64,000 nucleotides of DNA from Halobacterium hubeiense. GTDB lineage: Archaea > Halobacteriota > Halobacteria > Halobacteriales > Halobacteriaceae. This document shows positions 39,811 through 48,921 of this stretch, in pieces. A model generated the notes under the pieces. It worked only from the letters and a program-made list of their open reading frames with translations. It searched no databases and was not told the origin of the DNA. Position 1 is the stretch's first letter; each line of letters opens with the position of its first letter. Made by a program: the position numbers and the translations under genes. The DNA is taken from contig NZ_LN831302.1 in NCBI RefSeq assembly GCF_001488575.1, positions 2,356,001 through 2,420,000 on the forward strand, given 5' to 3'.

Positions 39811-39816
39811 TTTAAG
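39811..39816 (+). promoter_or_regulatory. TATA-like box of the argG leader
   Basis: TTTAAG, centred 28 bases before the ATG of the 35-codon leader frame at 39842. It is the only good box upstream of argG. Confidence 0.55.
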
Positions 39817-39841
39817 CACTCGGGACCGTTCGAGACTGGTA

Positions 39842-39949
39842 ATGACGCAGTCGTCGGCTCGCGCCCGCCGCTCGCCCTCGGTGAGCAGCGGGACCGTCGG
39901 CTGTCCGGTGTCCTCCCGTCGCGTGCCGCGACGACCGGGGTCCTTCTGA
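39842..39949 (+). CDS. Candidate arginine-rich leader peptide of argG (35 aa)
   Basis: A short frame with ATG at 39842 and TGA at 39947-39949, seven arginines among 35 codons, including the pairs R9-R10, R26-R27 and R30-R31 (the last pair CGA CGA, an uncommon codon here). A leaderless promoter box sits at the right distance. A 6-bp hairpin overlaps its stop codon. This arrangement would suit control of argG by arginyl-tRNA supply. Out-of-frame GC-rich DNA is also rich in Arg codons, so it may be spurious. Confidence 0.35.
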   Translation: MTQSSARARRSPSVSSGTVGCPVSSRRVPRRPGSF

Positions 39950-39953
39950 CCCC
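39937..39953 (+). promoter_or_regulatory. Hairpin in argG leader
   Basis: GGGGTC-CTTCT-GACCCC, a perfect 6-bp stem with a five-base loop that overlaps the leader frame stop. A T4 run lies about 20 bases further on (39973-39976). Candidate attenuator or RNA-structure element. Confidence 0.45.
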
Positions 39954-40030
39954 ACTACAGCTACATCCCTCGTTTTCGGTCTCGCATCACTTCCCGACTA
40001 CCGCGGCACACACCACACACGGAACACACA

Positions 40031-41251
40031 ATGACAGGAGGAACGGTCGCGCTCGCCTTCTCCGGCGGGCTCGACACGACGGTCTGCGTACCGCTGCTGA
40101 AAGAAGAGTACGGCTACGACGAGGTCATCGGCGTCACAGTCGACGTCGGCCAGCCCGAGTCAGAGTTCGCCGAGGCCCACGAGACGGCCGACGCGCTCGG
40201 CGTCGACCACTACGTCGTGGACGCGAAAGCCGAGTTCGCCGACCTCTGCTTCGAGGCGGTGCAGGCGAACGCTAGCTATCAGGGCTACCCGCTGGGCACG
40301 GCGCTCGCGCGCCCGGTCATCGCCGAGGCGATTCTGGAAGTCGCCGAGGAACAGGGCTGCACGGCACTCGCGCACGGTTGCACGGGGAAGGGCAACGACC
40401 AGCTTCGCTTCGAGGCCGTCTGGCGCGCCAGCGACCTCGACGTCATCGCGCCGGTCCGCGAACTCGGGCTGACGCGCGAGTGGGAAATCGACTACGCCGA
40501 CGAGAAGGGCCTGCCGGTCGAGGCGGGCAACGAGGGCGAGTGGAGCATCGACACAAACCTCTGGAGCCGCTCCGTGGAGGGCGGCCAGCTGGAGGACCCC
40601 GGCTACGAGCCGCCGGAGGACATCTACGACTGGACGGACGCCCCCAGCGACGAGACCGAGACCATCGACATCGAGTTTGAGGAGGGGGTGCCGGTCGCCG
40701 TGGACGGCGACGAGATGGAGCCGGTGCCGCTCATCGAGTACCTCAACGACCTCGCCGGGAGCTACGGCGTCGGCCGTACGGACATGATGGAGGACCGCAT
40801 GCTCGGCCTGAAGGTCCGCGAGAACTACGAGCACCCGGCCGCGACGACGCTGCTGACGGCCCACGAGGCGCTCGAACAGCTCGTGTTGACGAAAGACGAG
40901 CGCGAGTTCAGCCAGCAGGTCAGCCAGCAGTGGTCGGAGAAGGCCTACGAGGGCCTCGTCGACCACCCGCTGATGGACGCGCTGAACGGCTTCTTCGAGG
41001 GCACCCAGCAGAAGGTCACGGGCACGGTCACCGTCAAGTTCGAGGGCGGGCAGGCCCGCCCAGTTGCCCGCGAGAGCGAGTACGCGGTGTACTCCGCGGA
41101 CGCCGCGAGCTTCGACACGGAGACGGTCAACGGCATCGAGCAGGGCGACGCCACGGGCGTTGCGAAGTACCACGGCTTCCAGTCCCGCCTCGCGAACGCG
41201 AGCAAGCCGGAGCTGGCGCCGGATGGAGGCGACGAGGCGTCCGACGAATGA
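40031..41251 (+). CDS. argG: Argininosuccinate synthase
   Basis: Condenses citrulline and aspartate with ATP to argininosuccinate, the penultimate step of arginine synthesis. 406 residues. The ATP-pyrophosphatase P-loop is AFSGGLDTTV (residues 7-16); further family motifs are HGCTGKGNDQLRFE, EWEIDYADEKGLPV and NLWSRSVEGG. The ATG at 40031 lies at the end of an unusual CA-rich stretch with no Shine-Dalgarno sequence. Its stop overlaps the argH start (ATGA), so the two are translationally coupled. Confidence 0.97.
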   Translation: MTGGTVALAFSGGLDTTVCVPLLKEEYGYDEVIGVTVDVGQPESEFAEAHETADALGVDHYVVDAKAEFADLCFEAVQANASYQGYPLGTALARPVIAEAILEVAEEQGCTALAHGCTGKGNDQLRFEAVWRASDLDVIAPVRELGLTREWEIDYADEKGLPVEAGNEGEWSIDTNLWSRSVEGGQLEDPGYEPPEDIYDWTDAPSDETETIDIEFEEGVPVAVDGDEMEPVPLIEYLNDLAGSYGVGRTDMMEDRMLGLKVRENYEHPAATTLLTAHEALEQLVLTKDEREFSQQVSQQWSEKAYEGLVDHPLMDALNGFFEGTQQKVTGTVTVKFEGGQARPVARESEYAVYSADAASFDTETVNGIEQGDATGVAKYHGFQSRLANASKPELAPDGGDEASDE

Positions 41252-42768
41252 GCGGGGAGAGCGACGGCACGGTGGTTCGCCGCGACCGCTTCAGCGGCGG
41301 CCCCGCGCGGTCGTTCCTCTCCTCGATGGACGCCGACCACCGCATCTTCGCGGCGGACCTCGCGGTCGACCGCGCGCACGTGGTGATGCTCGCCGAGCAG
41401 GGCGTCGTCGACGACGACGAGGCGGCGACGATTCTGTCCGCGCTCGACAGCGTCGAGGACGCGGGCTTCGACGCGCTCCCCGAGGGTGAGGACGTCCACG
41501 AGGCAATCGAGACCGCGGTCGTGGAGCGCGTCGGCCCGGTCGGCGGGAAGATGCACACGGCGCGCTCGCGCAACGACGAGGTCGCGACCTGCATCCGCGC
41601 GCGCCTCCGCGAGGACGTGCTGGCCGCGCTCGACGCGGTAATAGCGCTCCGCACGGCGCTGGCGGACGTCGCCGAGGCCGAAGCGGACACCGTGATGCCG
41701 GGGTACACGCACCTCCAGCCCGCCCAGCCGACGACCGTCGCGCACTGGGCGCTCTCTTACGAGGGGACGCTCGCCCGCGACACGAGCCGGCTGCTGGACG
41801 CGTTCGGCCGCACGAACCAGTCGCCGCTGGGCGCGGCGGCGTTCGCGGGCACCACGTTCGACGTGGACCGCGAGCGCACCGCCGACCTGCTCGGGTTTGA
41901 CGGCGTCGTGGCGAACTCGATGGACGCGTCGGCGAGCCGTGACTTCCTCCTCGAAACCGTGGCGGCGCTGTCCTCGGTCGCGGTGACCTGTTCGGGCCTC
42001 GCGGAGGACGTCGTGCTGTTCGCGAACCGCGGGTTCGTGGAGCTCAGCGACGACTACTCCTCGACGTCCTCGATCATGCCCCAGAAGAAGAACCCGGACA
42101 CGCTGGAACTCGTGCGCGCGACCGCTGGTGACGCGGTGGGCGCGTACACGAGCCTCGCGACGACGCTGAAGGGGCTGCCGCGGGCGTACAACCGCGACCT
42201 CCAGCGCGCGACGCCGCACGCGTGGGACACCGCCGACGACGTGACCGACGCCGTCGAGGTTGCGGCGGGCGCGGTCGCGACGGCGGAGTGGCCAGCCGAG
42301 GAACTGGAAGCCGCAGCGGGCGAGGGGTTCTCGACGGCGACCGGCGTGGCGGACGCGCTGGCGGCGACGGGGATGCCGTTCCGCACCGCGCACGAAATCG
42401 TCGCGCTGGCGGCCGAGCAGAGCGACGACGCCGACGGGTCGAACGCGCTCCCGGAGAGCCACGCCAGCGACGGCGTCAGCGGCGAGCACAGCGCGGACCT
42501 CGTCGCGGTGGACGCGGCGGCCCGCGAGGTGACCGGAAAGCCGCTGTCCGAACTCGCGGACCCGGAAGTCGTGGCCGCGGCGCTTGACCCCGTGACGAAC
42601 GTCGCACAGCGTGACTCGGCGGGCGGCCCCGCGCCCGACGCGGTGCGCGACGCGCTGGACGACGTGCGGGTCGAGCTCGCGGCCGACGAGGCGGAAGTCG
42701 CCGACCACGAGGAAGCGCTAGCGGCGGCGGCCGACGACCTCGCCGCGGAGGTGGCGGCATATGAGTGA
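41248..42768 (+). CDS. argH: Argininosuccinate lyase
   Basis: Splits argininosuccinate into arginine and fumarate. 506 residues from the ATG at 41248, which overlaps the argG stop. HTARSRNDEVATC and the fumarase/aspartase signature SSIMPQKKNPD (about residues 272-282) are clear, with THLQPAQPTT carrying a conserved His. The C-terminal region has an acidic extension typical of haloarchaea, with an insertion around residues 395-410 (SDDADGSNALPESHASDG). It ends the first transcription unit of the arginine cluster. Confidence 0.97.
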   Translation: MSGESDGTVVRRDRFSGGPARSFLSSMDADHRIFAADLAVDRAHVVMLAEQGVVDDDEAATILSALDSVEDAGFDALPEGEDVHEAIETAVVERVGPVGGKMHTARSRNDEVATCIRARLREDVLAALDAVIALRTALADVAEAEADTVMPGYTHLQPAQPTTVAHWALSYEGTLARDTSRLLDAFGRTNQSPLGAAAFAGTTFDVDRERTADLLGFDGVVANSMDASASRDFLLETVAALSSVAVTCSGLAEDVVLFANRGFVELSDDYSSTSSIMPQKKNPDTLELVRATAGDAVGAYTSLATTLKGLPRAYNRDLQRATPHAWDTADDVTDAVEVAAGAVATAEWPAEELEAAAGEGFSTATGVADALAATGMPFRTAHEIVALAAEQSDDADGSNALPESHASDGVSGEHSADLVAVDAAAREVTGKPLSELADPEVVAAALDPVTNVAQRDSAGGPAPDAVRDALDDVRVELAADEAEVADHEEALAAAADDLAAEVAAYE

Positions 42769-42965
42769 GGCGGCCGCCGGCGCGACGGCTCGCGCCCGCT
42801 CGTCTGGCACGCCGGCCGGTCTGCGACGAGAGCGACCGCCCCTCCGTGGGCAAATAGACAACATACTTACTACGTATCTGGTTTCGGCTGGTTGGTCGTT
42901 TTGGGCGTTTTCGCGTCGTTAGCTGCTTCTCCAGTTCGTAAAAGAAGTTTGACAAGTCCGATTAG

Positions 42966-42971
42966 CTTAAG
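42966..42971 (+). promoter_or_regulatory. TATA-like box of the lysW operon
   Basis: CTTAAG 28-33 bases before the lysW ATG at 42999, in an A/T-rich intergenic segment (about 42850-42985). It indicates that lysW to argF form a transcription unit separate from argG-argH. Confidence 0.6.
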
Positions 42972-42998
42972 TGCTATCAGTGAGAACGTGGGAGTGCT

Positions 42999-43163
42999 AT
43001 GAGCACATGTCCCGAATGCGGGTCCGACGTGGCCCTGCACGACGACCTCGAAGTCGGCGAAATCGTCGACTGCGACACCTGTGGCACCGAACTGGAAGTC
43101 GTGGACACCGACCCCGCAGCCCTCGATCGAGCGCCCGAGCTCTCCGAGGACTGGGGGGAGTAA
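42999..43163 (+). CDS. lysW: Amino-group carrier protein LysW
   Basis: A 54-residue carrier protein. Four cysteines form a zinc ribbon (CPECG at residues 4-8, CDTCG at 25-29) and the C-terminus is the family signature EDWGE, whose last Glu gamma-carboxyl is joined to the amino group of glutamate. It protects and carries the intermediates from ArgX to LysK instead of an acetyl group. It is leaderless, followed one base later by the argX start. It is shorter than common ORF length cut-offs, but motif and context are decisive. Confidence 0.96.
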   Translation: MSTCPECGSDVALHDDLEVGEIVDCDTCGTELEVVDTDPAALDRAPELSEDWGE

Positions 43164-43164
43164 G

Positions 43165-44031
43165 TTGCGCGTCGGCATCCTCTACTCCCGGATTCGGAAG
43201 GACGAGAAACTGCTGCTCGGCGAGCTCCGCGAGCGCGGCCACGACGTCGAGAAGATAGACGTCCGCAAGCACGGCTTCGGCCTCGACGACACCGACGCCG
43301 CCATCGCGGACTGCGACCTCGTGGTCGACCGCTGTCTGGCGACCAGCCGCAGCAAGTACGCCACGGAGTTCTGCCGGCACTACGACGTCCCCGTCGTGAA
43401 CAGCCCCGACACCGCGGCCGTCTGCGCGGACAAAGTGCGGACGAGCCTCGCGCTCGACGACGCGGGACTCCCCACGCCCGACACCACGGTCGCGTTCACC
43501 ACCGAGAGCGCGCTGGAGGCCGTCGAATCCTACGGCTACCCCTGCGTGCTGAAGCCCGTCGTGGGCTCGTGGGGACGCCTGATGGCGAAACTCGACTCGC
43601 GGAACGCCGCCGAGGCCGTCCTCGAACACAAGGCGACGCTCGGGCACTACGAGCACAAAGTGTTCTACATCCAGGACTTCGTGGAGAAGCCGGGGCGGGA
43701 CATCCGCGTGCTGGCGACCGACGGCGAGCCCGTCGCCGCGATGACGCGCTCGGGCGACCACTGGCTGACCAACGCCGCGAAGGGCGCAGAGACGAACTCC
43801 TTCGAGGTCGACGAGGAGGTCGCCGACCTCGTCGAGACCGCCAGCGACGCGGTCGGCGGCGGCCTGCTGGGCGTGGACCTGATGGAGACCGGCGACGGCT
43901 ACACCGTCCACGAGATCAACCACACCGTCGAGTTCAAGGCGCTGAACGACGCCAGCGACGTGGACGTCCCGGCCGCGGTCGTCGACTGGCTGGAGGACCG
44001 CGCCGCCGCGGAAGTGGAGGTGACGCCCTGA
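43165..44031 (+). CDS. argX: LysW-glutamate ligase ArgX (LysX/RimK type)
   Basis: ATP-grasp ligase joining glutamate (or alpha-aminoadipate) to the C-terminal Glu of LysW. 288 residues. The TTG at 43165 is the start: it follows the lysW stop by one base and gives MRVGILYSRIRKDEKLL, the family N-terminus. ATP-grasp motifs are PCVLKPVVGSWGRLMAK, VLATDGEPVAAM and VHEINHTVEFK; the last, with NHTVEFK, is the LysX/ArgX-type substrate loop. In haloarchaea the pathway is thought to serve arginine, so ArgX is preferred over LysX. Confidence 0.95.
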   Translation: MRVGILYSRIRKDEKLLLGELRERGHDVEKIDVRKHGFGLDDTDAAIADCDLVVDRCLATSRSKYATEFCRHYDVPVVNSPDTAAVCADKVRTSLALDDAGLPTPDTTVAFTTESALEAVESYGYPCVLKPVVGSWGRLMAKLDSRNAAEAVLEHKATLGHYEHKVFYIQDFVEKPGRDIRVLATDGEPVAAMTRSGDHWLTNAAKGAETNSFEVDEEVADLVETASDAVGGGLLGVDLMETGDGYTVHEINHTVEFKALNDASDVDVPAAVVDWLEDRAAAEVEVTP

Positions 44032-45071
44032 TGGCCGAGAGCACGACCGCCACGATCGTCGGCGGGAGCGGGTTCGCTGGCGGGGAACTCCTCCGCCTGC
44101 TCGCCGGCCACCCCGACTTCGAGGTGGCGCAGGCGACCAGCCGCGAGTACGCGAACAAGACCGTCGGGAGCGTCCACCCGAACCTCCGCGAGATGGACCT
44201 GCGGTTCACGCCGCCGACGGACCTCGAATCCGTAGACGTGCTGTTCGCGGCGGCGCCCCACGGCGTCGCGATGGACCACCTCGACGAGTGGCAGGACGCC
44301 GCGGACACCGTGGTCGACCTGAGCGCGGACTTCCGCCTCGAAACCGAGAGTCAGTACGACGAGTGGTACGACGGCCACAGCGCGCCCGAGTACCTCGACG
44401 ACGCTGTGTACGCGCTCCCGGAGCTCTCCCGCGAGGAGCTCTACGGCGCGGACCTGATTGCGGGCGGCGGCTGCAACGCGACCGCGACGATTCTCGGCCT
44501 GCTCCCGCTCGCGGAGGCCGGCTTGCTGGACGACGCGCACGTCGTCGTGGACGTGAAAGTCGGCTCCTCGGAGGGCGGCGCGGGCGGCGGCCCCGCCTCC
44601 TCCCACCCCGAGCGCTCGGGCGTCGTGCGCCCGTACGCGCCCACGGGCCACCGCCACGAGGCCGAAATCGAGCAGTTCCTCGGGCTCTCGGTCTCCTTTA
44701 CCGCGCACGCCGTGGACATGGTCCGCGGCGCGAGCGCGACCTGCCACGTGTTCCCCGAGGAGACGCCCTCGACGGGCGACCTCTGGAGCGCGTACCGCGA
44801 GACGTACGAGGACGAGCCGTTCGTGGACATCGTCGCGGGCGGCAGCGGCGTCTACCGCTACCCGGAGCCGAAGGCCGTCGCCGGGACGAACGGCGCGGAG
44901 GTCGGCTTCGAGCTGGACGAGGACAACGGCCGCGTCGTGGCGTTCTCGGCCATCGACAACATGATGAAAGGCTCGGCGGGGCAGGCCGTCCACGCGGCGA
45001 ACGTCGCGCTCGGCTTCGACGAGACCGCCGGCCTCGACCAACTCGGGTTGCACCCGGTGGGAAGCCCATGA
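44031..45071 (+). CDS. argC: LysW-gamma-glutamyl-phosphate reductase (ArgC/LysY)
   Basis: NADPH-dependent reductase turning the LysW-bound acyl phosphate into the semialdehyde. 346 residues. N-terminal Rossmann motif VGGSGFAGGELLRLL (GxGxxG), catalytic cysteine in GGGCNATATILGLL, and the GSSEGGAGGGPASSHPERSG segment. It overlaps argX by one base (TGATG). Its stop is overlapped in turn by a tiny 11-codon frame that leads into argB. Confidence 0.95.
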   Translation: MAESTTATIVGGSGFAGGELLRLLAGHPDFEVAQATSREYANKTVGSVHPNLREMDLRFTPPTDLESVDVLFAAAPHGVAMDHLDEWQDAADTVVDLSADFRLETESQYDEWYDGHSAPEYLDDAVYALPELSREELYGADLIAGGGCNATATILGLLPLAEAGLLDDAHVVVDVKVGSSEGGAGGGPASSHPERSGVVRPYAPTGHRHEAEIEQFLGLSVSFTAHAVDMVRGASATCHVFPEETPSTGDLWSAYRETYEDEPFVDIVAGGSGVYRYPEPKAVAGTNGAEVGFELDEDNGRVVAFSAIDNMMKGSAGQAVHAANVALGFDETAGLDQLGLHPVGSP

Positions 45072-45103
45072 GTCACGCTCACCACGCGGGGTGGTTCGCG
45101 TGA
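45068..45103 (+). CDS. Eleven-codon bridging frame between argC and argB
   Basis: ATG at 45068 overlaps the argC stop (ATGA) and the frame ends with TGA at 45101-45103, which overlaps the GTG start of argB (GTGA). The peptide would be MSHAHHAGWFA. It could exist only to hand ribosomes from argC to argB. It may also be a chance result of the GC-rich sequence. Confidence 0.35.
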   Translation: MSHAHHAGWFA

Positions 45104-45936
45104 CTGTAGTGGTCAAAATCGGCGGCGCGCGCGCCGTCGACCCGGCGGGCGCGGTGACCGACGTCGCGCACCTCACGGTGAACGACGAGGACGTCGTGGT
45201 CGTCCACGGGGGGTCGACGGCGGTCGACGACGCGCTCGACCAGATGGGCAAAGACCCCGAGTACGTCGAGTCGCCGTCGGGGGTCACCGGCCGGTTCACG
45301 GACGCGGAGACGATGGACGTCTTCGAGATGGCGATGGGGAAGGTCAACACCGACCTCGTCGCGGCGTTCGAGAACGCGGGCGTGCCCGCGGTCGGCCTCA
45401 ACGGCGTCGACGGGAAGCTCCTCACTGGGCCGCGGAAGTCCGCAATACGGGTCGTCGAGGACGGCAAGAAGAAGATTCGCCGCGGCGAGCACTCCGGCAC
45501 CATCGAGGCGGTCAACACGGACCTGCTGGAGGCCCAACTGGACGCGGGCTACGTGCCCGTGGTGTCGGTGCCGATGCTCGCCAAGGAGAGCGACGACGAG
45601 GAGGAGTGGACGCCCGTGAACGCGGACGCGGACCGCGCGGCGGCGGCCGTCGCGGGCGCGCTCGACGCCACGCTGGTCGTGCTGACCGACGTGGAGGGCG
45701 TCTACGAAGACCCCGACGACCCGAGTTCGCTCATCGAGGAAGTGCTGACGCCCGCGGACCTCGACGGCGCGAAGGAGGCCGCGGAGGGGTTCATGACGAA
45801 GAAGGTGCTGGCGGCGACCGAAGCACTCGAAGGCGGCGCGGAGTCGGTCGTGGTGTCGGACGCGAACCGCCGCGACCCAATCGTCGCCGCGCTGGAAGGG
45901 GCTGGCACGCGCTTCAGCCCGGAGGCCCTGTCATGA
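45100..45936 (+). CDS. argB: LysW-glutamate kinase (ArgB/LysZ)
   Basis: Amino-acid-kinase-fold enzyme phosphorylating the LysW-bound glutamate. 278 residues from the GTG at 45100 (MTVVVKIGGARAV); another in-frame GTG at 45091 would add three residues. Motifs are VVKIGGA, VVVHGGSTAVDD, GLNGVDGKLLTG, PVNADADRAAAAVAGAL and VLTDVEGVYEDPDD. Its stop overlaps the argD start by four bases. The substrate GRKS/N-acetyl loop differs from acetylglutamate kinases, as expected for the LysZ branch. Confidence 0.95.
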   Translation: MTVVVKIGGARAVDPAGAVTDVAHLTVNDEDVVVVHGGSTAVDDALDQMGKDPEYVESPSGVTGRFTDAETMDVFEMAMGKVNTDLVAAFENAGVPAVGLNGVDGKLLTGPRKSAIRVVEDGKKKIRRGEHSGTIEAVNTDLLEAQLDAGYVPVVSVPMLAKESDDEEEWTPVNADADRAAAAVAGALDATLVVLTDVEGVYEDPDDPSSLIEEVLTPADLDGAKEAAEGFMTKKVLAATEALEGGAESVVVSDANRRDPIVAALEGAGTRFSPEALS

Positions 45937-47045
45937 GCGGGTTCGTCTTCGGGGAGAAGCCCATCCAGATCGAGTCCGGCGAGGGGCCGTACGTCTACGA
46001 CGACGGCGGCACCGAGTACCTCGACATGGGCGCGTCCTACGCCTGCGCGCCGGTCGGCCACTGTCACCCCGACGTGGTGGAGGCCGTGGAGTCCCAAGCC
46101 AGCGACCTGCTGTTCGTGCAGGGGTCGTACCCCACGGAGACGCGGACCGCGCTGTACGACCGCCTCGGCGACCTCGCGCCCGGCGAGCTGGACAACGTCT
46201 GGCTCTGCAACTCCGGGACGGAGGCCAACGAGGCGGCGCTGAAGTTCGCGCGCCACGCGACCGGCCGCGAGAAGGTCGTCGCGGCCAAGCGCGCGTTCCA
46301 CGGCCGCACGCTCGGCTCGCTGGCGGCGACGTGGAAGCAGAAGTACCGCGAGGGGTTCGCGGTCCCCGACAACGTCGAGTTCGTCGACTACGGGGACAGC
46401 GAGGCACTCGCGGACGCCGTGGACGACGAGACGGCGGCGGTCATCCTCGAACCCGTGCAGGGAGAGGGCGGCGTCCATCCCGCGCCCGACGGCTACCTGC
46501 AGGCCGCCCGGGACGCCTGCGACGAGACGGGCGCGGCGCTGGTCTTCGACGAGATTCAGACCGGGCTCGGGCGCACGGGCTCGCTGTGGGCGTGCGAGCA
46601 GGCGGGCGTCGCGCCGGACGCACTCACCGTCGCGAAGGGGCTGGGCAGCGGCCTCCCCATCGGCGCGACGCTGGTCGCGGACTGGCTCGCCGAAGATAGC
46701 GGCGACCACGGCTCGACGTTCTCCGGCGGTCCCGTGCCGTGTGCCGCGGCGCTCGCGACGCTCGACGTGCTGGAGGACGACGGCCTCGCGGCGAACGCGG
46801 CGAGCGTCGGCGACTACCTCCAAGACCAGCTCGCGGAACTGCCCGTTCGGGATGTTCGCGGCGAGGGGCTGATGGTCGGCGTCGAGGTGAAACGGGGGGC
46901 GAACCGCGCGCTGAAGTCGCTGGCGCTGAACCACAGGATTCTCGCGCTCCCCGCGGGACGCACCGTGGTGCGCCTCTTACCGCCGCTAACTGTCACCGAG
47001 TCCCACGCCGACCGCGTGGTCGACGCGCTCGCCGAGGAGCTATGA
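45933..47045 (+). CDS. argD: LysW-glutamate-semialdehyde aminotransferase (ArgD/LysJ)
   Basis: PLP class-III aminotransferase giving LysW-ornithine. 370 residues. Motifs are NSGTEANEAALKFAR, RAFHGRTLGSLAAT, EPVQGEGGVHPA, VFDEIQTGLGRTG and TVAKGLGSGLPIGA (PLP lysine). It starts at ATG 45933 overlapping the argB stop, and its own stop overlaps the lysK start. Whether it prefers the ornithine or lysine intermediate is decided by context, which is arginine here. Confidence 0.95.
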   Translation: MSGFVFGEKPIQIESGEGPYVYDDGGTEYLDMGASYACAPVGHCHPDVVEAVESQASDLLFVQGSYPTETRTALYDRLGDLAPGELDNVWLCNSGTEANEAALKFARHATGREKVVAAKRAFHGRTLGSLAATWKQKYREGFAVPDNVEFVDYGDSEALADAVDDETAAVILEPVQGEGGVHPAPDGYLQAARDACDETGAALVFDEIQTGLGRTGSLWACEQAGVAPDALTVAKGLGSGLPIGATLVADWLAEDSGDHGSTFSGGPVPCAAALATLDVLEDDGLAANAASVGDYLQDQLAELPVRDVRGEGLMVGVEVKRGANRALKSLALNHRILALPAGRTVVRLLPPLTVTESHADRVVDALAEEL

Positions 47046-48052
47046 CGCCCCGCGAGCTCCTCCGCGACCTCGTCGCGACCCCCTCCGTTTCGGGTGCGGA
47101 GTCCGAGGCGGCCGGCGTGCTCGTGGACTACTTCGAGCGCCACGGCCGCGAGGCGTGGACCGACGACGCCGGCAACGTCCGCGCGCCCGGCGACGACAGC
47201 GTGCTCCTCACGAGCCACGTCGACACCGTCCCCGGCTACATCGACGTGCGCGAGGAGAACGGCAAACTCTGGGGCCGTGGGAGCGTGGACGCGACCGGGC
47301 CGCTGGCCGCGATGGCCGCGGCGAGCGTCGAAACCGGCGCGTCGTTCGCGGGCGTCGTCGAGGAGGAGACGACCTCGGCGGGCGCGCGCCACCTCGTCGC
47401 GGACCGCGCGGAGCCCGACGCCGTCGTGAACGGCGAGCCCTCGGGCTGGGACGCGCTGACGCTGGGCTACCGCGGGCTGGTCGCGGGCACCTACGAGGTC
47501 GCCACCGAGAGCGGCCACTCCTCGCGCCCCGAGCCCAACGCCGTCCAGCTCGCGACCGCGTGGACCGAGCGCGTGCGCGCGGCGTTCCCGGACGACGACA
47601 CCGTCTTCGAGTCGGTGACGGTCAAGCCCGTCTCCTTCGACGGCGGGCTCGCCGACGACGGCACCGCCGTCGAGGCGACCGTCGAGATGCAGTTCCGGCT
47701 GCCGCCCGGCACCACCGCCGACGACGTCTACGAGACCGTCGCGGACTGCACCGAGCGCGGGTCGGTGACGTGGACGGAGTCGATTCCGCCCGTGATGGCG
47801 AGCCCGCGGACGCCGGTCGCGGGCGCGCTTCGAGCGGGCATTCGCGAGGCGGGCGGCGACCCAACGCACCTCCGGAAGACCGGCACGAGCGACGCGAACA
47901 TCTACGCCGGCGCGTGGGACTGCCCCGTCGCCACCTACGGCCCCGGGGACTCGAATCTGGACCACGCGCCCGACGAACGCATCGACCTCGCCGCGTTCGA
48001 CCGCGGCGTCGAGGTACTCACCACCGCAGCAGACAGGCTATGCACTTCCTGA
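47042..48052 (+). CDS. lysK: LysW-ornithine/lysine hydrolase (LysK)
   Basis: M20-family zinc hydrolase that releases ornithine from LysW, regenerating the carrier. 336 residues. The metal ligands appear in SHVDTVPGY (HxD), GRGSVDATGPLAAM (Asp), VEEETTSAGARH (catalytic Glu pair) and KTGTSDANIY. The N-terminus PSVSGAESEAAGVL is typical of this branch. It overlaps argD by four bases and argF by 13 bases. Its product ornithine is the substrate of the next gene. Confidence 0.94.
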   Translation: MTPRELLRDLVATPSVSGAESEAAGVLVDYFERHGREAWTDDAGNVRAPGDDSVLLTSHVDTVPGYIDVREENGKLWGRGSVDATGPLAAMAAASVETGASFAGVVEEETTSAGARHLVADRAEPDAVVNGEPSGWDALTLGYRGLVAGTYEVATESGHSSRPEPNAVQLATAWTERVRAAFPDDDTVFESVTVKPVSFDGGLADDGTAVEATVEMQFRLPPGTTADDVYETVADCTERGSVTWTESIPPVMASPRTPVAGALRAGIREAGGDPTHLRKTGTSDANIYAGAWDCPVATYGPGDSNLDHAPDERIDLAAFDRGVEVLTTAADRLCTS

Positions 48053-48921
48053 CAATCGACGACCTCACGACCGACGAACTGGCCGGCGTCGTGGACGACG
48101 CGGCCGCGCTGAAGCGCGCGCAAGCCGACGGCATGCCCCACGAGGCCCTCCCCGGGCGCTCGCTGGCGATGCTGTTCGAGAAGCCCTCGACGCGAACCCG
48201 CGTGAGCTTCGAGGTCGGGATGACCCAGCTCGGCGGCCACGGCGTCTTCCTCGGCGACGACGACATCCAACTGGGACGGGGCGAGCCCGTCGCGGACACC
48301 GCTCGCGCGCTCGGCCGGTACGTCGACGCGGTGATGGCGCGCGTCTTCGACCACGGCGACCTCGAAGAGATTGCCGCGCACGCCGACGTCCCGGTCGTGA
48401 ACGGCCTCACCGACGACGCGCACCCGTGTCAGGCGCTGGCGGACCTCCTGACGCTCCGCGAAGAAGTCGGGGACTCCGGGACGGTGGCGTGGGTCGGCGA
48501 CGGCAACAACGTCGCCGCGTCGTTCACGATTGGCGCCGCGATGATGGGCTACGACGTCAACGTCGCCACGCCCGAGGGATACGGCCTCGACGACTCCGTC
48601 ATCGAGCGCGCCGAGGAACACGGCGACGTGACCGTGACGACGGACCCCGAGGCCGCCACCGCGGACGCCGAGGTCGTCTACACGGACGTCTGGGTGAGCA
48701 TGGGCCAAGAAGACGAGCGCGAGCAGCGCCTCGACGCCTTCGAGGGGTTCCAGGTAGACGCGGATCTGCTCGGGGACGCGGCGTTCATGCACTGCCTGCC
48801 GGCGAACCGCGGCGAGGAGGTCACGGCGGACGTCATCGACGGCGAGCAGTCCGTCGTCTGGCAGCAGGCCGAGAACCGCCTGCACGCTCAGAAGGCGCTG
48901 CTCGTCGAGCTCGTGGACTGA
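48040..48921 (+). CDS. argF: Ornithine carbamoyltransferase
   Basis: Makes citrulline from ornithine and carbamoyl phosphate. 293 residues. Carbamoyl-phosphate motif EKPSTRTRVSFE (residues 48-59), DDAHPCQALADLLT (HPCQ), VGDGNNVAASF and the ornithine-site HCLPANRGEEV are intact. The ATG at 48040 lies 13 bases inside lysK, in another frame. It completes the path: its product is used by ArgG at the other end of the cluster. Carbamoyl-phosphate synthase is not in the window. Confidence 0.96.
   Translation: MHFLTIDDLTTDELAGVVDDAAALKRAQADGMPHEALPGRSLAMLFEKPSTRTRVSFEVGMTQLGGHGVFLGDDDIQLGRGEPVADTARALGRYVDAVMARVFDHGDLEEIAAHADVPVVNGLTDDAHPCQALADLLTLREEVGDSGTVAWVGDGNNVAASFTIGAAMMGYDVNVATPEGYGLDDSVIERAEEHGDVTVTTDPEAATADAEVVYTDVWVSMGQEDEREQRLDAFEGFQVDADLLGDAAFMHCLPANRGEEVTADVIDGEQSVVWQQAENRLHAQKALLVELVD

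Follow-up and report, generated by a model that had tools for sequence, protein, structure and literature searches.

The arginine operon of Halobacterium is preceded by a short leader frame that is rich in arginine codons and ends in a hairpin, and the best explanation overall is that this leader is probably a cis-acting, translation-sensing attenuator of the operon. That it senses arginine in cis is very likely, and the specific mechanism, in which a stalled ribosome occludes a terminator, is held to be somewhat likely. The sequences show the anatomy, conservation, frame, codon bias and geometry of the leader, its restriction to haloarchaea among the genomes sampled and parallel leaders with matching amino acids; we infer that stalling would raise expression and that the block would be one of transcription termination.

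In the window, which is the whole 64-kb stretch of Halobacterium DNA that was analysed, the locus is composed of the following features:

39811..39816, + strand: TATA box of the leader promoter (TTTAAG), its first base 31 nt and its last base 26 nt before the ATG at 39842.
39842..39949, + strand: leader peptide frame of 35 codons plus TGA with seven Arg codons, predicted to be leaderless, the frame being kept in 88/88 loci.
39864..39892, + strand: hairpin A, within the leader frame, CCCGCCGCTCGCC / GGTGAGCAGCGGG, a predicted fold of the window sequence.
39917..39934, + strand: control-codon run CGT CGC GTG CCG CGA CGA (codons 26-31), ending 2 nt before the arm of hairpin B.
39937..39953, + strand: hairpin B, GGGGTC-CTTCT-GACCCC, a perfect 6-bp hairpin with the TGA inside, candidate terminator.
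39954..39971, + strand: G-poor tract 3' of hairpin B, ACTACAGCTACATCCCTC, with 1 G per 18 nt.
40031..41251, + strand: argG, argininosuccinate synthase, first gene of the operon, without a TATA box of its own in Halobacterium.
41248..48921, + strand: argH, lysW, argX (LysX-like), argC, argB, argD, argE ([LysW]-hydrolase) and argF, the remaining genes of the operon.

The coding frame of the leader (39842-39946, followed by the TGA at 39947-39949) is MTQSSARARRSPSVSSGTVGCPVSSRRVPRRPGSF, and its Arg residues are R7, R9-R10, R26-R27 (CGT CGC) and R30-R31 (CGA CGA). The TATA-like box, the 35-codon frame, the seven Arg codons with their RR pairs and the TGA within a 6-bp hairpin, from which the original prediction of an attenuator had been made, are all present. 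The leader is bounded by a divergent small gene and argG, with 81 nt from the leader stop to argG. On the basis of the TATA spacing, the leader start codon is predicted to lie approximately at the transcript start, i.e. the transcript would be leaderless. The argG of the window shares 98% identity with its counterpart in Halobacterium sp. KA-4, and the operon order argG-H-lysW-X-C-B-D-E-F is that of the LysW-carried arginine route, the genes of which make arginine. Scanning the argG upstream region for bacterial-style terminators and promoters gave 0 matches, and Rfam 15 returned nothing above the gathering score, only a chance match, for the window region and seven leader loci.

Conservation was assessed in 88 distinct haloarchaeal argG loci, comprising 75 named contigs from many genera and 13 Halobacterium species. 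The same anatomy of TATA box, leaderless frame, Arg run by a G+C hairpin and G-poor tract was found in 88/88 loci, a number that counts related genomes and not independent events. The start codon is ATG in 84 of the 88 and GTG in the other four. In all 83 distinct ATG-start leaders the distance from TATA box to start was 30-34 nt, within a search window of 24-39 nt, which matches the spacing of leaderless haloarchaeal transcripts; leaderless transcripts account for 72% of the protein-coding transcripts of Haloferax (PMC4983044). The leaders range from 22 to 87 codons in length, the frame into the Arg run is kept throughout, and 2-8 Arg codons adjoin hairpin B. The in-frame stop falls inside hairpin B or at most 3 nt after it in 84/88 loci. 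In the Natronorubrum/Salinadaptatus clade (L031, L037, L043, L045) the frame stays open across hairpin B and ends about 60 nt beyond it, its Arg run being retained or lengthened, and since these frames read through, a stop in hairpin B is not essential. The leader of L060, with 87 codons (-388 to -127 before argG), has grown by a chain of palindromic repeats, and its frame to the Arg run is intact. Two more haloarchaea (L264, L265) also carry the argG leader, and it was absent from 18/18 non-haloarchaeal argG regions of the same phylum. Among the genomes sampled, the argG leader is restricted to haloarchaea, and it is not a one-genome accident. The original prediction had named missing conservation of the frame and hairpin among close relatives as a finding that would speak against it; the leaderless frame, Arg run and hairpin are kept in every argG locus of the sample, and the attenuator idea is thereby supported.

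Another statement of the original prediction, that the only TATA-like box before argG is that of the leader, is correct for Halobacterium, since no TATA-like box was found 22-36 nt 5' of the argG ATG in the window or in any Halobacterium examined. It does not extend to haloarchaea in general, for in 59/88 loci, none of them from Halobacterium, a second TATA-like box is located just 5' of argG. In Haloferax, Halorubrum and Natrialbales (e.g. L028, L061, L018) this second box lies 25-60 nt before the argG ATG, and a conserved A/T-rich block (TTTAATTTC..AAA..), perhaps a regulator site, is found upstream of it. The second TATA box with its A/T-rich block is absent in Halobacterium, Halorussus, Halarchaeum and Halomarina. 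In the 59 loci with a second box, the leader would control the distal promoter only and thus part of the transcription.

The position of argG relative to the leader bears on the alternative of control at the level of translation, in which leader translation and hairpin B would determine how ribosomes move on to or re-initiate at argG, or how stable the RNA is, without transcription termination. Upstream frames in general can govern downstream ribosome movement, re-initiation or RNA stability, and argG of Halobacterium, having no TATA box of its own, follows the leader stop by about 80 nt and is predicted to share its transcript. However, the leader stop varies from about 95 to 183 nt before a fixed argG codon, and because of this variable distance and the TATA-like box of argG itself in 59/88 loci, a link from the end of the leader frame to the start of argG cannot be how the system works in general. 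We consider translation-level control rather improbable, and attenuation remains the preferred reading.

Codon usage separates the leaders from the genes behind them. Arginine accounts for 22% of the codons in leaders versus 3.7% in argG. The original prediction had cautioned that non-coding G+C-rich DNA is biased to Arg codons, which is also what would favour a chance open frame whose Arg codons result from base composition. For CGA this caution fails: the codon makes up 59.6% of the Arg codons in leaders compared with 0.9% in argG of the same loci and 5% in the window genes, and because CGA is almost unused in genes, G+C bias does not explain it. Its use peaks at codons -4 to -8 relative to the leader stop, positions from which a ribosome that stalls would reach over the hairpin arm. 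In 83/83 scored leaders the final Arg codon is 0-5 nt from the hairpin B arm, five leaders having been excluded from this distance as their automatic hairpin call was wrong.

A codon-position test was performed on five close species. Codons 24-35 were altered once only, synonymously; the peptide body varies freely (variable codon positions in the leader 7/4/5) and is without purifying selection, which is expected for a leader. Across loci, the Arg run, the frame, the stop and the hairpin pairing are kept and the peptide body is not conserved.

A chance open frame was also weighed against a fixed search, which combined a TATA box, an ATG/GTG frame of 18-60 codons and a stop in a perfect G+C hairpin. 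In the 64-kb window the single match was the argG leader. In 591 kb of haloarchaeal loci there were four matches outside the argG leader, 0 of them with the G-poor tract that completes the architecture, versus 86 at argG. In about 1.6 Mb of the Halobacterium genome to which the window belongs (about half of it), the sensible matches with a G-poor tract were the argG and ilvB leaders; two others with such a tract were located at 2232153, in an apparent tRNA gene, and at 152674, without a plausible gene behind it. With CGA nearly absent from genes, and with frame, stop and hairpin kept across loci, the chance frame is refuted by conservation and its probability is negligible.

Hairpin B retains its pairing despite base changes (GC/CG at pairs 1, 3 and 4; UA/CG at pairs 5-7). 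Scored per sequence against dinucleotide shuffles, the mean z was -1.5 for hairpin B and 2.1 for hairpin A, and the combined z values for the two hairpins are inflated by relatedness. RNAalifold consensus folding of the MAFFT alignments (A1, A2) gave no pairs, because the stems stand in different registers between clades. In the folding of 32 leaders, the probability of hairpin B in free RNA was 0.98 on average, dropped to 0 when the A site of the ribosome was placed on the last Arg codon and was about 1 again once the A site was at least 13 nt upstream, the ribosome footprint being assumed to extend 12 nt downstream of the first base of the A-site codon. No antiterminator competing with hairpin B was found in these 32 leaders. 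In the same model a ribosome at the leader stop codon likewise covers hairpin B, so the states of the switch would differ by dwell time and not by alternative folds. The folding results thus point to hairpin B as the default, which would be held open for long only by a ribosome that lingers at the final two or three Arg codons.

In most clades hairpin A falls within codons 1-20, and its sequence differs between them (GGACTCGCGG/CCGCGAGTCC, GCGACTCGCAGC/GCTGCGAGCCGC, CCGTCGGTACC/GGTACCGACGG, CGGCTCAC/GTGAGCCG against CGGCTCCC/GGGAGCCG). In the window strain it is weaker or shifted, and the hairpin A of relatives uses a register overlapping that of the window, e.g. CGGCTCAC / GTGAGCCG. It may serve for holding back further initiation or for pausing the polymerase.

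In the mechanism we propose, the leader promoter would be the site of initiation, and translation of the 5' end would set in immediately at the leaderless start codon. By default the leader RNA would fold into hairpin B, past which only part of the polymerases would get; the hairpin would either serve as a terminator itself or form, jointly with the G-poor tract, a place for a termination factor to land. A shortage of arginyl-tRNA, above all of the one that reads the rare codon CGA, would make the ribosome stall on the CGA codons touching the hairpin; with the stalled footprint over the 5' arm, hairpin B could not form and the polymerase would proceed into the genes from argG to argF. With ample arginine, the ribosome would reach the stop in the hairpin and be released, hairpin B would form, and transcription, or the use of the downstream RNA, would stop.

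Termination at hairpin B is not obvious from its sequence, because a competing antiterminator and a conserved U-run are both missing. The T4 run that the original prediction had placed after the hairpin is indeed present in the window (39973-39976) but is not conserved, being missing in L088-L090 and L092-L094, and across loci the tract directly 3' of hairpin B is C/A/T-mixed without a conserved U-run. In Haloferax, a hairpin motif that lacks a T-run brought about termination of 59% of transcripts in vivo (PMC7237163), and hairpin B is therefore plausibly a terminator. The Haloferax volcanii hairpin terminator tested (S12) sits in a coding region (PMC7237163), whereas the argG hairpin B belongs to an upstream leader and is a candidate only.

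The main rival to hairpin B as the terminator is a termination factor acting on the G-poor tract. By the logic of Rho-dependent attenuators and tnaC, the naked tract would bind aCPSF1/FttA after release of the ribosome and the polymerase would be stopped, hairpin B merely keeping the tract clear or blocking the next ribosome. Between about 6 and 23 nt past the stop, G accounts for only a few percent at most positions in 83 leaders, the tract is as regular across loci as hairpin B, and aCPSF1 is reported to be the general archaeal termination factor (PMC7515710, PMC8716108). On the other hand, aCPSF1 is reported to work with U-tracts (PMC8716108), whereas this tract is of mixed composition, and the survival of the hairpin B pairing through base changes suggests that the stem itself matters. 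The factor-dependent version is thus judged unlikely, and termination at hairpin B, relieved by a stalled ribosome, is preferred.

Before ilvB, the first gene of the branched-chain operon, the same leader design was found in 41/42 loci (13/13 in Halobacterium and 28/29 class-wide; L108 and L235 were counted by leader sequence, since the automatic frame search missed both). It is represented by the following feature:

L100, G000 C1, about 1873101, minus strand: ilvB leader with its stop in the hairpin AGGGGC..GCCCCT and a G-poor tract, found also in L096-L108 and L218-L245.

The ilvB leader peptides end in IIVGA, GIVGA or RIVGA. Within their last nine codons, ATT represents 84% of Ile codons versus 9% in ilvB, and GTA represents 63% of Val codons versus 0.3%. 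The exception, L217, is without a leader; its ilvB is the top-scoring one to the family model and is probably of different origin. As judged from sequence, it is this parallel with matching amino acids that decides the class to which the argG leader would belong. The attenuator reading first made from the window is supported both by the conservation at argG and by this independent case.

A Phe leader (GFGFFFA) precedes pheS in all 13 Halobacterium loci (L124-L136), and a Phe-run frame was found before pheS in 16/25 other haloarchaeal loci. Upstream of pheS (L124-L136, L297-L318), the segments CCGAACCC / GGGTTCGG are repeated further downstream, and this recurrence may allow alternative pairings of the classic four-segment type. 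At the second (bacterial-type) trpS (L266-L275), the loop of a roughly 10-bp hairpin, GTCCGCTCCC/GGGAGCGGAC, contains Trp codons (W-R-W), and the stop of the leader is beside a small hairpin. No leader was found at trpC, which has a direct leaderless start. In L115, L117 and their relatives a palindrome-like block, ACTAGTGCATTAATGCAC, is located between the TATA box and the trpC ATG and is possibly a repressor site.

The leaders at other operons also bear on the idea that the argG leader is a stand-alone small gene for a basic micropeptide or a small RNA acting in trans, with hairpin B as an ordinary terminator. Such a gene would fit the promoter and hairpin of the leader and the second argG promoter in many genera. 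But the peptide body is unconserved among close species and the length ranges over 22-87 codons; only control codons, frame and pairing persist, always in the same place before argG, and the matching amino acids at ilvB (Ile/Val) and pheS (Phe) would have to be coincidence. A stand-alone gene is therefore very improbable. Regarding the leaders as cis-acting attenuators, we consider it reasonably probable that amino-acid operons and tRNA synthetases of haloarchaea are controlled via coupled transcription and translation by a whole family of such leaders, with leaderless frames for Arg, Ile/Val, Phe and Trp. This would represent attenuation in Archaea with two simple hairpins, no antiterminator and the stop in the terminator hairpin. 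If true, class-wide leaders with matching control codons would imply that archaeal transcription-translation coupling is tight enough for regulation, would supply a convenient readout for coupling and for termination in Haloferax, and would account for the way in which haloarchaea regulate their arginine and branched-chain synthesis. The leader frames and hairpins are absent from Rfam and easily lost in annotation.

In Haloferax volcanii, transcription starts have been mapped before a 26-aa frame at pheS and a 23-aa frame at tryptophan-tRNA ligase (PMC4983044, Table 2), to which the Phe and Trp leaders described here are similar in size and place. Babski et al. class such frames as small proteins in long leaders, with attenuation unmentioned, and their list of upstream frames does not contain argG or ilvB (PMC4983044). 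For argG this counts against the attenuator, although the list holds 15-31-aa peptides of low isoelectric point in 150-250-nt leaders. No report of leader-peptide attenuation in archaea was found in the literature searched, which covered few subscription papers, and older work is possible.

In bacteria, ribosome-sensed attenuation is a textbook mechanism, and the trp, his, leu, ilv and pheST operons of E. coli have ribosome-mediated attenuators of this kind. The argG leader resembles them in its short frame with many codons for the end product, the rare codons at the presumed stall site, the adjoining hairpin and the biosynthetic operon downstream, and the GFGFFFA leader at haloarchaeal pheS has a parallel in the Phe-rich leader of E. 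coli pheST. It differs from these E. coli attenuators in its archaeal promoter, its predicted leaderless start and its stop in or beside a terminator-like hairpin. In the E. coli pyrBI and tnaC leaders, a ribosome near the termination signal blocks its use without an alternative fold. The argG leader shares with them the ribosome beside the signal and the absence of an alternative fold, but its own signal would be codon-specific Arg stalling, whereas pyrBI uses UTP-dependent polymerase pausing and tnaC uses nascent-peptide arrest with bound tryptophan. The ilvB uORF attenuators of Corynebacterium (PMC10272879, PMC11857589) have a leader frame before ilvB in common with the haloarchaeal ones; they are bacterial, and the likeness is one of position. 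Departing from the trp type in having neither a competing antiterminator nor a conserved U-run, the argG leader, as far as its sequence features indicate, would work like a bacterial attenuator.
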